Source: Bacillota bacterium (GTDB lineage Bacteria; Bacillota; Clostridia; Lachnospirales; CAG-274). Taken from it: a stretch of DNA of 64,000 nucleotides. The stretch lies in NCBI GenBank assembly GCA_017543265.1, contig JAFYGI010000051.1:1-64000 (forward strand), written 5' to 3'. Below, piece by piece: positions 9,771 to 17,104 of the stretch (position 1 is its first letter; each line of letters begins with the position of its first letter). Below the pieces are notes generated by a model. It ran no database searches. It was not told the DNA's origin and saw only the letters and a program-made list of their open reading frames with translations. The position numbers were made by a program, and so were the translations under genes.

Positions 9771-11129
9771 CTACTGTCTGCGCCGTCTTTCCCTCTCGTC
9801 CAGATCGTCGGCATATACGGCCTCGGTAACATATTCTATGCTTACCCTTTTTGAAAATTCCGTTTTGTTCCACTGCTCCGTCACACGGTCAAGCACCTTT
9901 CCGATATTGTCGGAGGACATTTCGGGCAAAAGCAGGAAAAAGCTGTTGCTGCGGTACTGCATCATAATATCGCTTTTGCGCAGGGAGCGGTCAAGTATCC
10001 CGCCGAACTGCTCCGCGATCGCGGCAAGCTCCGCCCCGCCGATGCCGCCCGAAAACGGCTTTACGGTAAGCAGCGCCTTGTAGGCCATGCCGCGGTAGCT
10101 TTGTATGTAGCGCATCATAAAGCGGTAGACCTGCCCGAAGGAGTCCTGTCCAAGCCACAGCGCCGAGTCGGATATATTTCTTTCCTCAAACACCATGCTT
10201 AGCTTGTGCATGGTCTGCTCGGGCGTTTCCTCACCGTCGGTATTGCCCGCATAATTTTGCATATACACCGCATAGCCGTGTTTTTCGTTTTGCTTTACAT
10301 AGTACAGCGCCTTGTCCGCCATATTGAAAAGCGACTCATAGTCCCTGCCGTGCTGCGGCACAAAGACCGCACCCGCCGACACGCCCAGGGGGATATTCAT
10401 ATCCTCCCCCATAAGGCTGCGTGCAGCGCTCAAAAGCTGCTCGTTCACGCGCCTTACCACGGATGCCACCGTCTTTTCGGAGGTCTCCCCGCCGATAAAT
10501 ACCACAAACTCGTCACCGCCTATCCTGCCGACAATGTCGTCCGTGCGGATATTGCGGCGCATAACATCGGCAAAGGCGGTAAGTATCTTGTCGCCCATAT
10601 CATGGCCGTAAATGTCGTTGACCAGCTTAAAATTGTCAAGGTCTGTCAAAAGCAGGGTGCCGCTTTGCGTACAGCAGACCTCCGAAAGCTCCCGCGTGAC
10701 ATGGCTTTTGTTGTAAAAGCCCGTAAAGCTGTCCGTTGTCGCCTCGGCGGTAAGGCTGTCTATGCGCTCTATATTTTTGATGATATTGTCCACCCTTTTA
10801 AGCAGTACATCGGGGCGGAACGGCTTGCGGATAAAATCGTCCGCACCCATGGCAAAACCCTCGCCCTCAATGTCGCCGCTCTCGTCCGCAGTCATAAAAA
10901 CAACGGGGATATGCACGCCGTAGCGCTCCTGCAGGCATTTGTGCATCTCAAACCCGCTCATGCCCGGCATAAGCAGGTCGGAAAGTATCATATCGGGTCT
11001 TTCCCGCTCGTACACCTCCAGCGCCTCGCCGCCCGACGATGCGCATACCGTTTCGTAATCCGCCGACAGCACCCTTTGTGCGACCTTCAGCATCATTTCC
11101 TCGTCGTCAACTATCATAATTTTCCTCAT
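9771..11129 (-). CDS. REC-GGDEF response regulator (diguanylate cyclase) with degenerate second GGDEF-like tail
   Basis: Receiver plus diguanylate cyclase, making cyclic di-GMP from two GTP. The receiver spans 1-120 with Asp51 in SDLLMP. The GGDEF domain (about 130-290) has the intact active site RIGGDEF at 202-208. The product-inhibition I-site RTDD lies at 195-198, five residues upstream. A further 150 residues (300-452) resemble a worn GGDEF fold: LRKSDIMMQYRSNSFFLLLP matches the RxxD-xx-RxGGDEFxxxLP layout without the GGDEF residues. It lies 11 bp after the hybrid kinase. The tail assignment is by pattern and is less sure than the rest. Confidence 0.95.
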   Translation of the reverse strand: MRKIMIVDDEEMMLKVAQRVLSADYETVCASSGGEALEVYERERPDMILSDLLMPGMSGFEMHKCLQERYGVHIPVVFMTADESGDIEGEGFAMGADDFIRKPFRPDVLLKRVDNIIKNIERIDSLTAEATTDSFTGFYNKSHVTRELSEVCCTQSGTLLLTDLDNFKLVNDIYGHDMGDKILTAFADVMRRNIRTDDIVGRIGGDEFVVFIGGETSEKTVASVVRRVNEQLLSAARSLMGEDMNIPLGVSAGAVFVPQHGRDYESLFNMADKALYYVKQNEKHGYAVYMQNYAGNTDGEETPEQTMHKLSMVFEERNISDSALWLGQDSFGQVYRFMMRYIQSYRGMAYKALLTVKPFSGGIGGAELAAIAEQFGGILDRSLRKSDIMMQYRSNSFFLLLPEMSSDNIGKVLDRVTEQWNKTEFSKRVSIEYVTEAVYADDLDERERRRRQ

Positions 11130-11140
11130 AATACCTCTCC

Positions 11141-14100
11141 TTATTTTTTAAGTGCCGCCTCTATGTCCTTGACGGTCTTGTTGTATATCTCCATAAGCTG
11201 CGGATTGTCGGCTATGATGTCCGAAACACGCTCTTCCTTTGCCGCGTTTTCGTGCCACAGCGCCCGCTCCGCCAGCTTGTCCGCGCCTATCATTTTAGCC
11301 GTGCTTTTAAGTGCGTGCACGCGCGTGCGGTAATCCTTCCAGTTGGCTGTTTCAAGGTCGTGCAGTATCTCGCGCGACTTTTCCTTTGCACCCTCGGCAA
11401 AGGCAGCCAGCATCTCCGCGTAAAATTCCTCGCTGTTCATGGCATAGCCAAGCCCCGCCTTTGTGTTTATGCCCGCCGCTTTAAGCTGCTCCACGGGGGA
11501 GTTTGGCAGGCCCGCGGGAGTGTCCGCCCTGTCTGCGGCAGTACCGCCCGATACCGTCTTTTGCGGCGGCAGATACTTTTCAAGCATCTTTTCAAGCTTG
11601 TTTACCTCTATGGGCTTGGAAAGATAATCCGCAAAGCCCTCGCTTATATATTTTTCCTTCGCGCCCGCAACGGCATTGGCGGTAAGCGCGATAACGACCG
11701 TGTCCGCAGGCAGCAGACCCCTGTCCTTTATGATATGCAGGGTCTGTACACCGTTTTTGCCCGGCATCATATCGTCAAGGAACACAATGTCGTAATGCTT
11801 GGCGCTTATGCGCTCTATACAGCCGTCGCCGCTTTCGGCAACATCGGGCACTATACCGCAGCGCTTCATAAGTCCCGCGGCCACTTTAAGGTTCATATCG
11901 TTGTCGTCCACCACAAGCACATCGGCATTTTCGGTCATGAGCCGACCCTCGCCGCCGCCCTGCATATCGGTCGTCATGCCCACAACATACTCGCCTATCG
12001 GGGACTTGTCTATCACCTTCTGGCCGAGACGGAAGCTGAACACGGAGCCCTTGCCGTACTCGCTTTCCACCTCCAGAGCGCTGCCCATCATGTTAAGGAG
12101 CCTCTGCACAATGGAAATGCCCAGACCCGTGCCCTCTATACTGCGGTTTTTCTCCGCATCGAGCCGCCTGAACGACTGGAAAAGCGCCGATATATCCTCG
12201 GGCTTTATGCCCATGCCCGTATCCTTTACCGCCACCTGCATCTCGTAATTTTCCGCATCGGTATATCTGCCGCCGATACGCAGGGTAACGCTGCCGCTGT
12301 GCGTGTATTTTACCGCATTTGTAAGTATGTTTGTTATTATCTGCTTTATGCGCAGGTCGTCGCCGTAAAGTGTCCTGGGGAGCGCGGGGTCGATGTCCGT
12401 TATAAGCTCCAGCCCCTTTTTGTGCGCACGCTCGGTTATCATATATACCATGTCGTCAATAAGCCCCACGGTATCGTAGCGTGCCTGTATTATCTCCATT
12501 TTGCCGCTTTCTATCTTGGCATAGTCCAGAATACTGTTTATAAGCTCCAGCAAAGTGCTGCCCGCCCTTTTTATGTTGTTGGAGTATTCCTGTATATCGC
12601 CGCCCGTGTTTTCCCGCAGTATCATTTCGTTCATGCCCAGCACGGCATTTATGGGCGTGCGTATCTCATGGCTCATCTGCGCCATAAACTGCGACTGTGC
12701 CTTTTCCGCAGCCAGCGCCGCATCCGCCGCCTCGGACAGCCTGCGGTTCACATCCTGCTGCCAGCGTATCAGGCGGTTTATCAGCACGGTAACGGCGGCA
12801 ATGCAAAGGCCGAAAAGGAAAAGGAACAAAAGCGAGAGCAAAACCGAGGTGCCGAATATGCTCCACCAGCTGTTGACCACCATAACGGTAAAGCCCGATG
12901 TGTTGTTCTTTTTGGACATACAGGTCATAAAACTGCCGTTGTAGTCGCGTATCACGGCGGATGTACTGCTGTGGTAGGCGCTGCTGTAGTCGGTGTCCTC
13001 TATACTGGTCATTTTGCCTTGGGACATCTGATAGTCGCTGTTGGGGTGGTTTATGATAACGCCGTCGGAGTCCACAAGAAAGGCATAGCCCGTTTTTGTG
13101 TAGCTTTCGCCCAGCACGTTCACCAGCTTGTCCATAAAGAAATCTATGCCGAATATGCCGAGAAACCTGCCGTTTTCGCCGTAGACCACCTGTGACATGG
13201 TTATACAGTAGTTGCCCGTCTGCTCGTCATAATAGGGGACGGAAATGTTTTTGCCGTCCTGCGACCTTTCCGTATCTATGTACCATTGGCGTTTTTCCAC
13301 CTTCCAGTCCTCGTCGGGCTGCCAGCCGTTGTTCATTATAACGGTATGCTCTTTGTAGGGGTTGGCCATGTAGCAGACCGAGATCTCGGGATAGTTTTTG
13401 ACCACATCATCCAGCCATTTTACCGCGCTGTCGTAGTCGTCCATCAGCTCGGGGCGCTCGGATATGATGTTGGTGAACATACTTAAAATGCTTTGCTGCT
13501 TTGTTATCCATTGCTCCAGCTGGTCGTCATAGACCACGGTCTCGCCCGCCATTTTGCTCTCGCCCCAGCCGCGTGCGGAGTTTATGCTTATTATCTGACT
13601 GCTGACAAGCGCAAGCAGCAGTATGGCAATAACGCCGTTTCGCGCCAGACGGCTCGCCTTGGGCAGGTTTATCTGCTTTTGCGGCGTATTTTTTTCGTTT
13701 TCCTCGGAAACTATGGACGAGAACGAGAAAAGGTTGTCAAACATCTCCGAAAGCTGAATGCACGACTCCTTTATCTCGCTGACATCCTCCGCGGAGCCGC
13801 CGTGCCTTGAAAGCATGGAATTACAGCGTGTGAGTGCCCTGTTAAGGGGGTCGCGCAGCTCCACCGAAAGCCCCGACAAAAACTCTTCCTTTACGGCAAG
13901 TGCCTTTTCGGACTTGACGCGGTTATGCACACTTCTTAAATAAAGCACGATTATAACGACCACCATAAGCAGGTTTACGGCGGTATTGACCATTATCTGC
14001 CTGTAGCTGTCGCGGTACAGCGCCCAGTTGTCCACGCAAAGTATCATATACCACCTGTTGCTTGTTTCGCTGCTGAAAATGGTCTGTGTCCTGCCGTTCA

Positions 14101-14860
14101 GCTTTACGCGGAAGCTTTGATGCTCCATGGAGGCAATTACTCTTTTAAAAACGTCCGTGTATTCCGACAGCCTCAGCTCAAGATCGGAGCCGACGTAGCT
14201 CATATCCGTATAGCCGACTATCATGCCCTTTTGGGTGACGATAAGCGCCGTCCTGTCGGTGTCCTGCGTCATTTTGGATATGGACTCCTGAAGTCTGGAA
14301 AAGTTGTAGTCGGCGGCTATTACCGTATCGTGGTCGGAAAGCATGGTGGACACGGTAAAACACATATCGCCCGTTATAATGTCGATATAGGGCTCGGTTA
14401 TAAATATCTCGCCGAAATTTTCCGCCGCACCCTTGTACCACACTCTTTCGGTGGCGTGGAAGTCCTCGGGCGCATCAAAGCCCGGTATCACCTGCCAGTT
14501 TGTGCCCGCGATATAGATATTGGTGCAGGCACCGTCCGTCGCCTCCGACTGGGCGCGGCGCTGCTGTATTATGTATTCCTCCAGCGTCTTGTAGCCGTCG
14601 TCAAGGTCCACAAGCTGCTCCGAGCCTATGGCGGCACGCATGACTATACGCTCCGCCTCGTCGATGGTGCCCTCCAGGTCGTTTCTGATACTGTCCAGCT
14701 GTACACGGCCTATTTCCTCGGTCTGCGCCGACATAACGCCGAAGATGACACTTATATTCATAAATATTACCAAAAGCAGGGCAAGCGTGATAAGCGATAT
14801 CCTGAAATAATCCACCGCCGTACCGCGGTATACCCTGTAATCCCCGCCGATCTTCTTCAT
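11141..14860 (-). CDS. Hybrid histidine kinase with two sensor halves, a pseudo-HisKA, REC and HPt
   Basis: Large membrane phosphorelay kinase (1239 aa). Order: membrane segment 21-43, extracytoplasmic Cache-like domain 45-285, membrane segment 290-310, HisKA-like helices 320-390, membrane segment 407-427, second Cache-like domain 430-665, membrane segment 668-695. Then come an active HisKA with His731 in MSHEIRTP, HATPase (NILTNAVKYT, DTGMGI, GTGLGI), receiver with Asp1029 in FLDDMMP, and HPt with His1182 in VHALKSTA. The first HisKA-like segment reads LSVELRDPLN, with Val333 where the phospho-histidine belongs, and no ATPase follows it. It therefore looks like a fused, catalytically dead sensor half. 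GGGAGG ribosome site; 24 bp after the RT gene. Confidence 0.93.
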   Translation of the reverse strand: MKKIGGDYRVYRGTAVDYFRISLITLALLLVIFMNISVIFGVMSAQTEEIGRVQLDSIRNDLEGTIDEAERIVMRAAIGSEQLVDLDDGYKTLEEYIIQQRRAQSEATDGACTNIYIAGTNWQVIPGFDAPEDFHATERVWYKGAAENFGEIFITEPYIDIITGDMCFTVSTMLSDHDTVIAADYNFSRLQESISKMTQDTDRTALIVTQKGMIVGYTDMSYVGSDLELRLSEYTDVFKRVIASMEHQSFRVKLNGRTQTIFSSETSNRWYMILCVDNWALYRDSYRQIMVNTAVNLLMVVVIIVLYLRSVHNRVKSEKALAVKEEFLSGLSVELRDPLNRALTRCNSMLSRHGGSAEDVSEIKESCIQLSEMFDNLFSFSSIVSEENEKNTPQKQINLPKASRLARNGVIAILLLALVSSQIISINSARGWGESKMAGETVVYDDQLEQWITKQQSILSMFTNIISERPELMDDYDSAVKWLDDVVKNYPEISVCYMANPYKEHTVIMNNGWQPDEDWKVEKRQWYIDTERSQDGKNISVPYYDEQTGNYCITMSQVVYGENGRFLGIFGIDFFMDKLVNVLGESYTKTGYAFLVDSDGVIINHPNSDYQMSQGKMTSIEDTDYSSAYHSSTSAVIRDYNGSFMTCMSKKNNTSGFTVMVVNSWWSIFGTSVLLSLLFLFLFGLCIAAVTVLINRLIRWQQDVNRRLSEAADAALAAEKAQSQFMAQMSHEIRTPINAVLGMNEMILRENTGGDIQEYSNNIKRAGSTLLELINSILDYAKIESGKMEIIQARYDTVGLIDDMVYMITERAHKKGLELITDIDPALPRTLYGDDLRIKQIITNILTNAVKYTHSGSVTLRIGGRYTDAENYEMQVAVKDTGMGIKPEDISALFQSFRRLDAEKNRSIEGTGLGISIVQRLLNMMGSALEVESEYGKGSVFSFRLGQKVIDKSPIGEYVVGMTTDMQGGGEGRLMTENADVLVVDDNDMNLKVAAGLMKRCGIVPDVAESGDGCIERISAKHYDIVFLDDMMPGKNGVQTLHIIKDRGLLPADTVVIALTANAVAGAKEKYISEGFADYLSKPIEVNKLEKMLEKYLPPQKTVSGGTAADRADTPAGLPNSPVEQLKAAGINTKAGLGYAMNSEEFYAEMLAAFAEGAKEKSREILHDLETANWKDYRTRVHALKSTAKMIGADKLAERALWHENAAKEERVSDIIADNPQLMEIYNKTVKDIEAALKK

Positions 14861-14884: not shown

Positions 14885-16117
14885 TTATTTACTGTTTGTC
14901 CGCACCGCCAAATCCCGCTGTGCGGCTTGTTTTTGATACTTGTAGTATTCGTTTACAAGGCTGCGGCGGCCCATAGCCCTTATGTCGGCATAGCTCAGCT
15001 TGTAGTTGCCCTTGTAATGCCTGCCGCTGTACAAATATCTGATATATTCAAGCATATAGCCGTCTATTTCCTTTAATCCGTCCGCGGTGGTGAGCACGGG
15101 GAAAAACCACCTGCTCCACGAAAAATCCCCATCGCGCATATCGTCGTAAAACTTGCGGTCAAAGTGCTTTATAAGCGCCTTTGCCGCCTTTTCGCAGGGC
15201 AAGTTCTTTTTTACGCGCCACCTGTAAAGTGCCTTTGCCTTGCGCCTTATCTTGCCCTTTATCTTCTTTTTGGAGGCAGCCGACAGGTCTATCCTGCCGT
15301 TTACATAGCCGAAGCCGAGAAAATCCCAGCTTTCGCCCGGCGCAGTAACGCTGCATTTGTCCGTATTTATTTCAAGACCCTTTTTTGTTATTATCTGCGT
15401 GAGCCTGTTTTTGTAATACTCCGCCTGCTGCGCCGTATCCACAAAAAACACCATATCGTCCGAATATCTGTAAAAGGGTATGCCCTCGCCCACAAACCAG
15501 TCGTCCAGCTCCTTTAAATAGATGTTGGCAAAAAAGGGCGACAGGGGACAGCCCGCCATTGCGCCCCTGTTTTCGTAAACAAGGCTGCCGTTTTCGTATG
15601 CCGCATCGGTCAGCAGAAGCTCCTTTAAAAAGGCCTTTAGCCGCGGGTCGTCGTCTATGATATCATCCAGCGCCGCCGCAAGCTCTGCCGCGGGAATGGA
15701 GTTAAAATAGTTATGTATATCCGTTTTGACACAGTATTTGCCGCCAAGCCCCCGCACGGCCATTATGCGCCTTATGGCCTTTTGCGCGGTATGCGCCTTC
15801 CGGAAGGAATAGCAGGCCTCGCTGAGCTTATTGTCGTACTTGTACAAAAACGCGCAAAGCAGCTTAAGCACCCAGACCTCGTCATCGGCAAAGCGGTACA
15901 CAATGCGCTTTTTGCCCGTTTCAAGCTTGTTGACAAGGCACTTTTGGGGCGCGGAGAGGTGCAGGCCGTTTTGGATAACACGCATATAGCCCTCGTCCTC
16001 TATGTATTTTTTAAGTTTTCTTTCCTCGAACGGGCGCAGATGCCCGCCCGCCTTTTTCTCCGCCAGAAAGTCAAGCCAGTTTTGCTTTACGCAAAGCCCG
16101 TCCAATAAGCTGTCCAT
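14885..16117 (-). CDS. Reverse transcriptase, unassigned single-domain family
   Basis: RNA-directed DNA polymerase of 410 aa. Start at ATG 16117 is preferred: GAGGTG lies 5 bp upstream. A TTG further up (16144) falls within a hairpin. RT blocks are intact: KTDIHNYFNSI (Asp133), AGCPLSPFFANIYLKELD (188-205), catalytic YSDD (218-221), and FLGF (266-269). The thumb region has WSRWFFP (334-340). There is no maturase X domain, no HNH endonuclease, no DGR-type SQ motif after motif 3, and no clear retron NAxxH/VTG pair. It is preceded by a structured leader RNA and followed 24 bp later by the hybrid kinase. Function unknown; a role in defence or regulated cDNA synthesis is inference. Confidence 0.92.
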   Translation of the reverse strand: MDSLLDGLCVKQNWLDFLAEKKAGGHLRPFEERKLKKYIEDEGYMRVIQNGLHLSAPQKCLVNKLETGKKRIVYRFADDEVWVLKLLCAFLYKYDNKLSEACYSFRKAHTAQKAIRRIMAVRGLGGKYCVKTDIHNYFNSIPAAELAAALDDIIDDDPRLKAFLKELLLTDAAYENGSLVYENRGAMAGCPLSPFFANIYLKELDDWFVGEGIPFYRYSDDMVFFVDTAQQAEYYKNRLTQIITKKGLEINTDKCSVTAPGESWDFLGFGYVNGRIDLSAASKKKIKGKIRRKAKALYRWRVKKNLPCEKAAKALIKHFDRKFYDDMRDGDFSWSRWFFPVLTTADGLKEIDGYMLEYIRYLYSGRHYKGNYKLSYADIRAMGRRSLVNEYYKYQKQAAQRDLAVRTNSK

Positions 16118-16127
16118 AACACACCTC

Positions 16128-16156
16128 AAAAACGGGGCCTGCAATGCAGCGCCCCG
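16128..16156 (-). terminator. Terminator-like hairpin between leader RNA and RT
   Basis: On the minus strand CGGGGC-g-CTGC-ATT-GCAG-GCCCCG (16156 to 16133) is followed by TTTTT (16132-16128). The RT ribosome site GAGGTG (16127-16122) begins at once. It could end most transcripts as a free RNA, with read-through making the RT. Confidence 0.65.
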
Positions 16157-16299
16157 CAGTAGAAAAAGAGAAATCGCTTTGAAGCGAACTACCTTAGTAG
16201 TTCAGCACGGGGCTGAACGGATACCCGATGTCTGCAAACCGTTTTATGCGGTATCCGCTTCGTCCTTCGCAGACGTATAAAATACATTCTCTTTTACAC
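16128..16299 (-). ncRNA. Structured leader RNA upstream of the reverse transcriptase
   Basis: About 170 nt between a promoter and the RT ribosome site. On the minus strand AAAAGAGAA (16287-16295) pairs perfectly with TTCTCTTTT (16164-16172), closing the element. Inside are GTCTGC/GCAGAC (16269-16274 with 16230-16235), TTCAGC/GCTGAA (16201-16217), CTAC/GTAG (16189-16200) and TCGCT/AGCGA (16174-16187). GGATACC/GGTATCC (16219-16225 with 16250-16256) could form an alternative or pseudoknot. The 3' part is a GC-rich hairpin with a U5 tract. Architecture resembles retron or DRT template RNAs (a1/a2-like end pairing), but the sequence family is not recognised. Boundaries are inferred. Confidence 0.6.
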
Positions 16300-16304
16300 T
16301 CCTA

Positions 16305-16310
16305 ATTATA
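16305..16310 (-). promoter_or_regulatory. Extended -10 promoter of leader RNA and RT
   Basis: TGATATAAT on the minus strand (TATAAT at 16305-16310, TG just upstream) is an extended -10. Only a weak TTACAT lies 17 bp further upstream. Transcription would start near 16299, at the 5' end of the folded leader. Confidence 0.6.
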
Positions 16311-16568
16311 TCACACACATATATAATATGTAAATGGGGAAAGTCAAAAAATCATCCTTTCGGTAAGTCAAGTTATTGCAAAGCGCTTGGCAGGCAAAAA
16401 CGCAAAATTCATCCGTTCCGATTTTTTATTTATTGTCCCTTTATCCGTACAACAACCGTGCAACAAGTCGAAAACATCATGCAAAAATGCGGCCGACATC
16501 ACGGGGGAGTGCTGATTTACCGTGGGTCGGGAGAATTCATCCAATCGAACATATTTTCTATTTTTTTA
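16311..16568. other. Gene-free region between RT leader and sigma-like gene
   Basis: This 258-bp stretch holds no ORF with a ribosome site. It has short imperfect direct repeats (AAGTCAA at 16351 and 16366; TTCATCC twice, near 16410 and 16536). It separates two divergent transcripts. No known motif was recognised. Confidence 0.4.
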
Positions 16569-16597
16569 TTGACACAACACGAAATGTGGTGTATAAT
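16569..16597 (+). promoter_or_regulatory. Perfect consensus sigma-A promoter with an inverted repeat
   Basis: TTGACA (16569-16574), 17-bp spacer, TATAAT (16592-16597): both boxes are perfect. The spacer carries an imperfect inverted repeat, ACACAACA and TGTGGTGT (7 of 8 pairs), which could be an operator. It drives the gene at 16670. Confidence 0.85.
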
Positions 16598-16669: not shown

Positions 16670-17104
16670 ATGACAGCAAAATTTTTTCTGAATCAGATAC
16701 GGCGCATCACAATGCGCATAAAGTTCAAGCAGCAGGAGATAGCGGAGATGGAGGCGAACATCAAGGATCTGCACGGGACAAACTTTGACGATGTAAAGGT
16801 ACAGCAAAGCTGTACGGGCGGCGCGGGCTTCGAGGACATGGTGGCCTATACGGAAAACCTGCGTGCGGAGCTTAACCGCGATCTTGCCGCACTTGCAAAG
16901 TGCCGCCACGATATTATATCCAAGCTTAATATGCTTGAAAAAGAGAGATATTCACGGGTATTGTTTTTAAAATATGTCAAGCTGATGGATTATGCGCAGA
17001 TAGGTACCGTAATGGGATATTCGGTCAACTATACGCGCGAGATACACAGTAAGGCGATAAGGGAGTTTGAACACCTGCTTATGCAGATGAAAAAAGCGAT
17101 GTAA
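16670..17104 (+). CDS. Small regulator with sigma-70 region 4-like helix-turn-helix (DUF1492-like)
   Basis: A 144-aa protein with an N-terminal coiled-coil stretch (about 15-90, rich in K, E, A). The C-terminal HTH, DYAQIGTVMGYSVNYTREIH (about 106-125), has the layout of sigma region 4 and of phage late regulators. It resembles the DUF1492/RinA-type proteins found in Bacillota phages and integrated elements. No phage structural gene is nearby. GGAGGG precedes the ATG by 6 bp. It has a perfect consensus promoter and is divergent from the RT leader. Its target is unknown; control of its own promoter or of the RT is speculation. Confidence 0.6.
   Translation: MTAKFFLNQIRRITMRIKFKQQEIAEMEANIKDLHGTNFDDVKVQQSCTGGAGFEDMVAYTENLRAELNRDLAALAKCRHDIISKLNMLEKERYSRVLFLKYVKLMDYAQIGTVMGYSVNYTREIHSKAIREFEHLLMQMKKAM

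Follow-up and report, generated by a model that had tools for sequence, protein, structure and literature searches.

What kind of RNA precedes the reverse transcriptase (RT) gene in this Bacillota genome, and what would the RT do with it? The window, a stretch of 64,000 nt from contig JAFYGI010000051.1 (Lachnospirales, CAG-274), contains directly upstream of the RT a region that folds into several hairpins enclosed by pairing ends. Such an arrangement may belong to a retron, to a DRT in which the enzyme copies a companion RNA, or to a leader controlling RT expression.

The UG26 reverse transcriptase and the RNA before it

The RNA gene and the RT share the minus strand, with the RNA directly upstream. 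In PADLOC, the RT matches the RT_UG26 profile with 492.5 bits, while the next profile reaches 125.3 bits. The lower RT profiles (≤125 bits) include generic RT, UG4, UG27, UG17 (DRT10), Drt9, Drt3a and Cas1-RT; judged by profile scores alone, UG26 appears near class 2, with generic RT, UG4 and Cas1-RT also among its neighbours. NCBIfam returned sub-threshold RT models only. A group II intron was rejected, as the maturase model scored 119.7 bits against a cut-off of 300 and no group II intron RNA was found in the window. AlphaFold2 predicts a confident RT fold (pLDDT 91, pTM 0.84), for which Foldseek lists group II intron RTs first, followed by G2L4 and DRT9 and then by DRT2 and DGR RTs. A second, distant RT is present in the genome of the window (L002, contig C49:53332-53727; 28 % identity, E 1.6e-7).

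In a retron, the paired ends would correspond to a1/a2 and the RNA to the msr-msd template of multicopy single-stranded DNA, and paired ends around hairpins just upstream of an RT do have this appearance. We nevertheless give a retron hardly any credence: UG26 is the best RT profile by a wide margin, the best retron model reaches 58.7 bits against a cut-off of 235, and the RT sequence lacks the NAxxH and VTG motifs of retron RTs. The retron half of the label “retron- or DRT-like”, which a sequence-only reading had given to this region, is thereby left unsupported; the DRT half is supported by the UG26 RT and its conserved, covarying companion RNA. The best reading of the system is a DRT-like RT-RNA pair resembling class 2, not a retron.

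The features of the locus are given below in the direction of transcription. Helix numbers refer to two alignments, A2 with 25 RNAs and A4 with 77 RNAs, both fitted to the structure of R1, a covariance model built from 23 clostridial RNAs only, which matches the window at 16155-16305 with 81.7 bits.

16305-16334, minus strand: promoter TTTACA-N18-TATAAT with TG ahead of the second hexamer (11/12 matches)
16164-16298, minus strand: UG26-associated ncRNA (extended RT-5 RNA), approximate mature extent, ~135 nt (R1 match, promoter, P1)
16287-16295, minus strand: 5' strand of the closing helix P1, AAAAGAGAA (fold, partner-swap, pairing counts)
16274-16286, minus strand: SL1 hairpin UGUAUUUUAUACG, immediately within P1 (helix 2; 98.7 % paired in A2 and 91.9 % in A4, with double changes)
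16171-16278, minus strand: core matched by Rfam RF03026, RT-5 RNA (cmscan 57.8 bits, gathering threshold 45.7)
16266-16274, minus strand: pseudoknot strand a, GUCUGCGAA, pairing with 16238-16230
16217-16258, minus strand: P2/P3 stem-loop, GCGGAUACC / GGUAUCCGU (helices 4 and 5 in A2 and A4)
16230-16238, minus strand: pseudoknot strand b, UUUGCAGAC, within the P2/P3 loop (98.1 % of cells paired, 77 sequences)
16186-16203, minus strand: P4 hairpin, GAACUAC / GUAGUUC (helix 6 in A2, helices 6 and 7 in A4)
16176-16183, minus strand: UUCAAAGC, candidate template loop between P4 and P1 (UUNAA conservation)
16164-16172, minus strand: 3' strand of P1, UUCUCUUUU (fold, partner-swap, pairing counts)
16128-16157, minus strand: GC-rich, terminator-like hairpin (16157-16133) with U5 (16132-16128) (sequence and MFE fold)
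14885-16117, minus strand: UG26 RT, 410 aa, intact, YSDD motif (PADLOC RT_UG26)

The perfect 9-bp pairing of the ends that had been described as enclosing the hairpins is present, joining 16295-16287 with 16172-16164 over a distance of 123 nt; SL1 and the pseudoknot are additions to that description. The 193-nt leader folds with an MFE of −67.6 kcal/mol (z=−3.64), which none of 200 shuffles equalled. Among 2000 dinucleotide shuffles, a perfect 9-bp match arose in the same two places 10 times and anywhere with a span of at least 60 in 55 cases. The claim that chance would seldom produce such a match is hence fair but not decisive, and since the match is only modestly improbable for a single sequence, the case for the structure rests on comparison.

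Conservation of the structure and linkage to UG26

The RNA itself is already described, its core being Rfam RF03026. As the Rfam model passes its gathering threshold in 18 of 20 diverse relatives too, the RNA as such is not new. Both the Rfam family and the RNA studied here lie upstream of an RT, but the Rfam model ends inside the RNA: P1 lies outside it except for two nucleotides, and the Rfam structure contains neither P1 nor SL1 nor the pseudoknot. A literature search, with the motif- and group-defining papers outside its scope, returned no paper naming RF03026, no RT type for this RNA and no function for RF03026, for UG26 or for COG2852 with RTs, and the sole relevant paper naming UG26 was a viral survey.

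Pairing was counted in cells, which are sequences counted and not evolutionary events. In A2, 90.9 % of the cells pair compared to 37–51 % in slid controls, and in A4 91.1 % compared to 47–55 %. Double changes affect 726 cells in A4 and 212 in shuffles. Fitting to R1 favours the modelled helices in both alignments. The pseudoknot lies outside the model and is not favoured in this way, and its pairing frequency contrasts with 35–57 % after sliding and comes with 34 doubly changed cells. P1 pairs in 92.6 % of cells across the 77 relatives versus 66–74 % when slid by 1–3 columns, showing 241 doubly changed cells (72 in shuffles) and compensatory double changes at 12 of 12 pairs. When the partner strands of P1 were swapped between relatives, the true combinations gave −18.4 kcal/mol against −10.1 kcal/mol, none of 20,000 permutations being as good in this test, which ignores relatedness; most divergent members, the window included, nevertheless performed better than every swap. 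On these comparisons, the P1 closing helix, most of which lies beyond the Rfam model, is real. The sequence-only reading had named missing conservation or covariation in homologues as its refutation; both were found, against slid as well as shuffled controls. A tertiary pairing of the loop sequence CAAAG with CUUUG in the P3 loop was dropped by eye, as it fails in many lineages.

The RNA is closely tied to UG26 RTs. Among 295 genomes of the order, RF03026 occurs in 13 and UG26 RTs above 340 bits in 14; all 13 RF03026 genomes carry the RNA at the UG26 RT, and the remaining genome (G112), in which the RT is divided between two contigs, lacks the RNA. The class (391 genomes) contributed 13 further UG26 loci above 470 bits, with the RNA detected by R1 in each, bringing the clostridial UG26 loci with RT-5 to 26 of 27. 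More remote RTs, which score 284 and 204 bits, are not accompanied by an RT-5-like RNA, and most RTs at about 120–140 bits accompany group II intron RNA. A profile scan of named genomes gave 424 relatives including 80 UG26 loci, and in 77 of these R1 has a match on the RT strand, upstream of the gene; two of the named genomes, congeners of the window, are also in the clostridial set. Two of the three misses have upstream sequences of 59 and 126 nt only, leaving one locus (L114, 553 nt) as a true exception. A conserved ncRNA next to the RT, one criterion for class 2 DRTs, is found, with covariation, at 77/80 and 26/27 loci. UG27 and Drt9 loci, sought in the class for RNA comparison, were found in none of 196 genomes each, and the controls were silent as well. 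Taken together, sequence and covariation establish the structure of the RNA, its conservation and its linkage to UG26: the region is a real, conserved UG26-associated ncRNA gene. In working style, it would belong with DRT2, DRT3, DRT9 and DRT10.

Going by their record titles, the hosts of the 80 named loci fall into four phyla, with 46 Bacillota, 24 Bacteroidota, 9 Actinomycetota and 1 Acidobacteriota, although single phylum assignments may be wrong as most host genomes are metagenome-assembled. The RT tree requires at least 6 phylum changes, suggesting horizontal transfer, and the occurrence of UG26 is patchy within genus and order. Both patterns resemble those of defence genes and speak against a role other than phage defence, such as a domesticated cellular function. 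Such a role would fit the surroundings of the RT, which consist of signalling and housekeeping genes with no defence island and no defence neighbours in the window, and also the phage and plasmid records, which gave no match at 1e-20; we consider it rather doubtful. Viral contigs yielded two remote RT fragments only when queried with an alignment, while a single-protein query of the genomes and viral contigs gave no match at all, a result limited by the query, as the alignment query gave the 424 genome relatives. The UG26-RT-5 system likely belongs to the defence family, and anti-virus defence would be its most likely role.

On the 3' side of the RT, the window encodes two proteins at 9771-14860 (minus strand): a hybrid histidine kinase of 1239 aa that carries Cache domains, and a response-regulator-like protein of 452 aa that looks GGDEF-like by eye. 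This is an ordinary signalling neighbourhood. On the other side and divergent from the RNA, a perfect TTGACA-N17-TATAAT promoter (16569-16597, plus strand) precedes a 144-aa ORF (16670-17104, plus strand) weakly resembling sigma-70 family factors.

An RNA probably made apart from the RT message

The RNA may alternatively be a cis-acting leader or attenuator controlling RT expression, as two features would allow: in most loci it immediately precedes the RT and shares its strand, and in the window the terminator-like hairpin follows it. The GC-rich hairpin with U5 ahead of the ribosome site of the RT is indeed where it had been noted, at 16157-16128, with GAGG and then the RT start codon ATG at 16117 following the U5; the hairpin is not among the hits of the consensus terminator scan. 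Upstream, the −10 box of the promoter ends about 9 nt before P1, and it is from this promoter and P1 that the RNA ends at 16298 and 16164 are deduced. About 1.7 sites of the quality of this promoter are expected by chance in the region. Several relatives have TATAAT 5–8 nt ahead of the aligned P1 start, and a −10 match of at least 5/6 is found in 14 of 25 loci compared to 8 % of control windows.

Two clostridial loci carry the RNA at a distance from the RT. In G487, the intact RNA is 1.2 kb upstream of the RT, with a gene on the opposite strand in between, and in G377 it lies 7.3 kb away on the same strand, separated by several opposite-strand ORFs and with a GC hairpin after P1. Both retain TATAAT just ahead of P1. 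These distances across opposite-strand genes argue for a trans-acting RNA and against a pure 5' UTR element; as many relatives also have the RNA between a partner gene and the RT, we regard the leader as very unlikely. The proposal that the RNA is made separately from the RT message gains support from the abutting promoter, the terminator-like hairpin and the separated loci, and RT-5 looks like an independent RNA and not like the leader of an RT mRNA. In a congener of the window (L086), about 0.3 kb separates RNA and RT, and an inverted-repeat-like sequence at about 2230-2530, perhaps a small insertion element, lies between them.

Candidate template, partner protein and possible function

In the class 2 DRTs studied to date, the enzyme copies an ncRNA encoded in cis (PMC13174585, PMC12632851, PMC12483538). 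In the UG26 RNAs, the loop that follows P4 and precedes the 3' strand of P1 contains UUNAA in 95 of 100 RNAs (65 UUCAA, 20 UUUAA), compared to 9 % of shuffled loops, starting at a median of 114 nt from the P1 start; in the window, UUCAAAGC can alternatively form a small hairpin. The U4 template of DRT9 lies at nt 123–126 and is universally conserved (PMC12483538), and the 9-nt template of DRT10 occupies about nt 107–115 of 137, as read from the described mutations (PMC12632851). UUNAA appears to sit roughly where these templates lie, the agreement being one of position only. From position and family, a template role of the RNA is plausible, and the RNA is probably the one that the UG26 RT holds and copies.

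DRT10 (UG17) has an ncRNA of comparable length (137 nt), which is closed by a large stem, forms smaller stem-loops and carries its template in the central loop; it also has a third gene, as do many UG26 loci (PMC12632851). The RT profile is nevertheless UG26 and not UG17, and no A-B-A' repeat was found in UG26 RNAs. A DRT10-style A-B-A' template was rejected, since 25 RNAs gave no signal (mean matched length 2.04 versus 2.00 and 2.04 in two shuffles); in a broader set, A and A' were without covariation by eye. DRT9 (UG28) is likewise a two-component system of RT and ncRNA with a conserved U-containing loop late in the RNA, and its structures are among the nearest Foldseek folds of the UG26 RT, but its template is a U4 homopolymer (PMC12483538), where UG26 RNAs have the conserved UUNAA. 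DRT2 (UG2) shares a pseudoknotted ncRNA adjoining the RT (PMC12039810), yet it has a template of ~120 nt, whereas the UG26 RNA offers only a short free loop before P1.

With neither an A-B-A' repeat nor a homopolymer template found, the RNA might be a structural or regulatory subunit only, and the UG26 RT might make untemplated DNA in the manner of class 1 UG enzymes, which need no nucleic-acid template to polymerise (PMC13174585). UUNAA is conserved as strongly as a protein-binding motif would be, but the DRT9 template is just as universally conserved (PMC12483538), and class 2 systems studied so far, including enzymes among the profile neighbours of UG26, copy their ncRNA (PMC13174585). We therefore judge untemplated synthesis unlikely.

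Our main reading, to which we assign a probability of about 0.6, is that this region encodes the ncRNA of a UG26 RT system in which the RT holds and copies the RNA and the cDNA serves anti-phage defence. The ~135-nt RNA would start at its own promoter and be closed by P1, containing a hairpin, the pseudoknotted stem-loop, a second hairpin and the UUNAA loop. The terminator-like hairpin would separate it from the RT coding region, with partial read-through past this hairpin into the RT. As the separated loci suggest, the RNA may be a trans-acting subunit of the RT complex. Family and position further suggest that the RT binds the RNA as a scaffold and makes cDNA from a short template within the UUNAA loop. 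This synthesis would probably be protein-primed and repetitive in the style of DRT2, DRT9 and DRT10, and its product would be used against phages. A C-terminal EYY, the candidate tyrosine primer, is common in the RTs, but its replacement in L028 (SFW) and L053 (EFH) means that the candidate tyrosines are not universal and counts against protein priming. A small partner protein would be added in many relatives, with the clade of the window managing without it. More tentatively, UG26 and RT-5 could form a DRT type of their own, in which the cDNA copied from the UUNAA loop is short or consists of short repeats and differs from what DRT2, DRT3, DRT9 and DRT10 produce, with an RNA acting in trans from kilobases away and often with a small, perhaps nuclease-like partner encoded directly before the RNA.

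The analysis unites RT-5 RNA and the UG26 RT, both database entries of unknown function, in one system, completes the RT-5 fold by P1, SL1 and the pseudoknot, indicates a candidate template and identifies natural loci in which RNA and enzyme are already apart. As every ncRNA-using DRT solved so far yields a different DNA product, an RT-RNA pair spread over four phyla tests the generality of a defence chemistry based on short-template cDNA.

The partner gene lies upstream on the same strand in about 59 of 100 UG26 loci, a count that is approximate because the single cluster was obtained by single-linkage clustering and has a 702-aa ORF and an 876-aa TIR protein among its members; most of the proteins have 130–270 aa. 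It is usually the nearest ORF (for example L094:2319-2831 and L138:2302-2835) and ends a median of 16 nt before P1 (48 loci). The partner family was not found in the genome of the window or in two congeners. PADLOC lists RT_UG26 with RTasCOG2852 as a candidate DRT; the RT of the window matches the former strongly, and four of seven tested partners of relatives match the latter weakly (best 1.1e-6), so the association was probably known to the authors of the profile. The entry differs in including no RNA, and the genome of the window in having no detectable partner. A SLATT-domain partner as in DRT10 was not found, the partners of relatives having no Pfam match, and the gene order of DRT10 is RNA-SLATT-RT as opposed to partner-RNA-RT in UG26 loci (PMC12632851). 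The predicted partner model combines an MGLFDKLLK-like helix at the N-terminus with a confidently modelled alpha/beta domain at the C-terminus. Foldseek returned nothing significant for it (best E 0.076), the scattered weak matches including several nuclease-fold proteins such as TnsA and SfsA; given these matches, and with only M1, N158 and R166 invariant, the idea that the partner may be an inactive nuclease-like domain is a guess. In one relative (L068:2945-5575), a partner-like domain appears at the C-terminus of the 876-aa protein, which also carries TPR and TIR domains and sits immediately ahead of the RNA and the RT.
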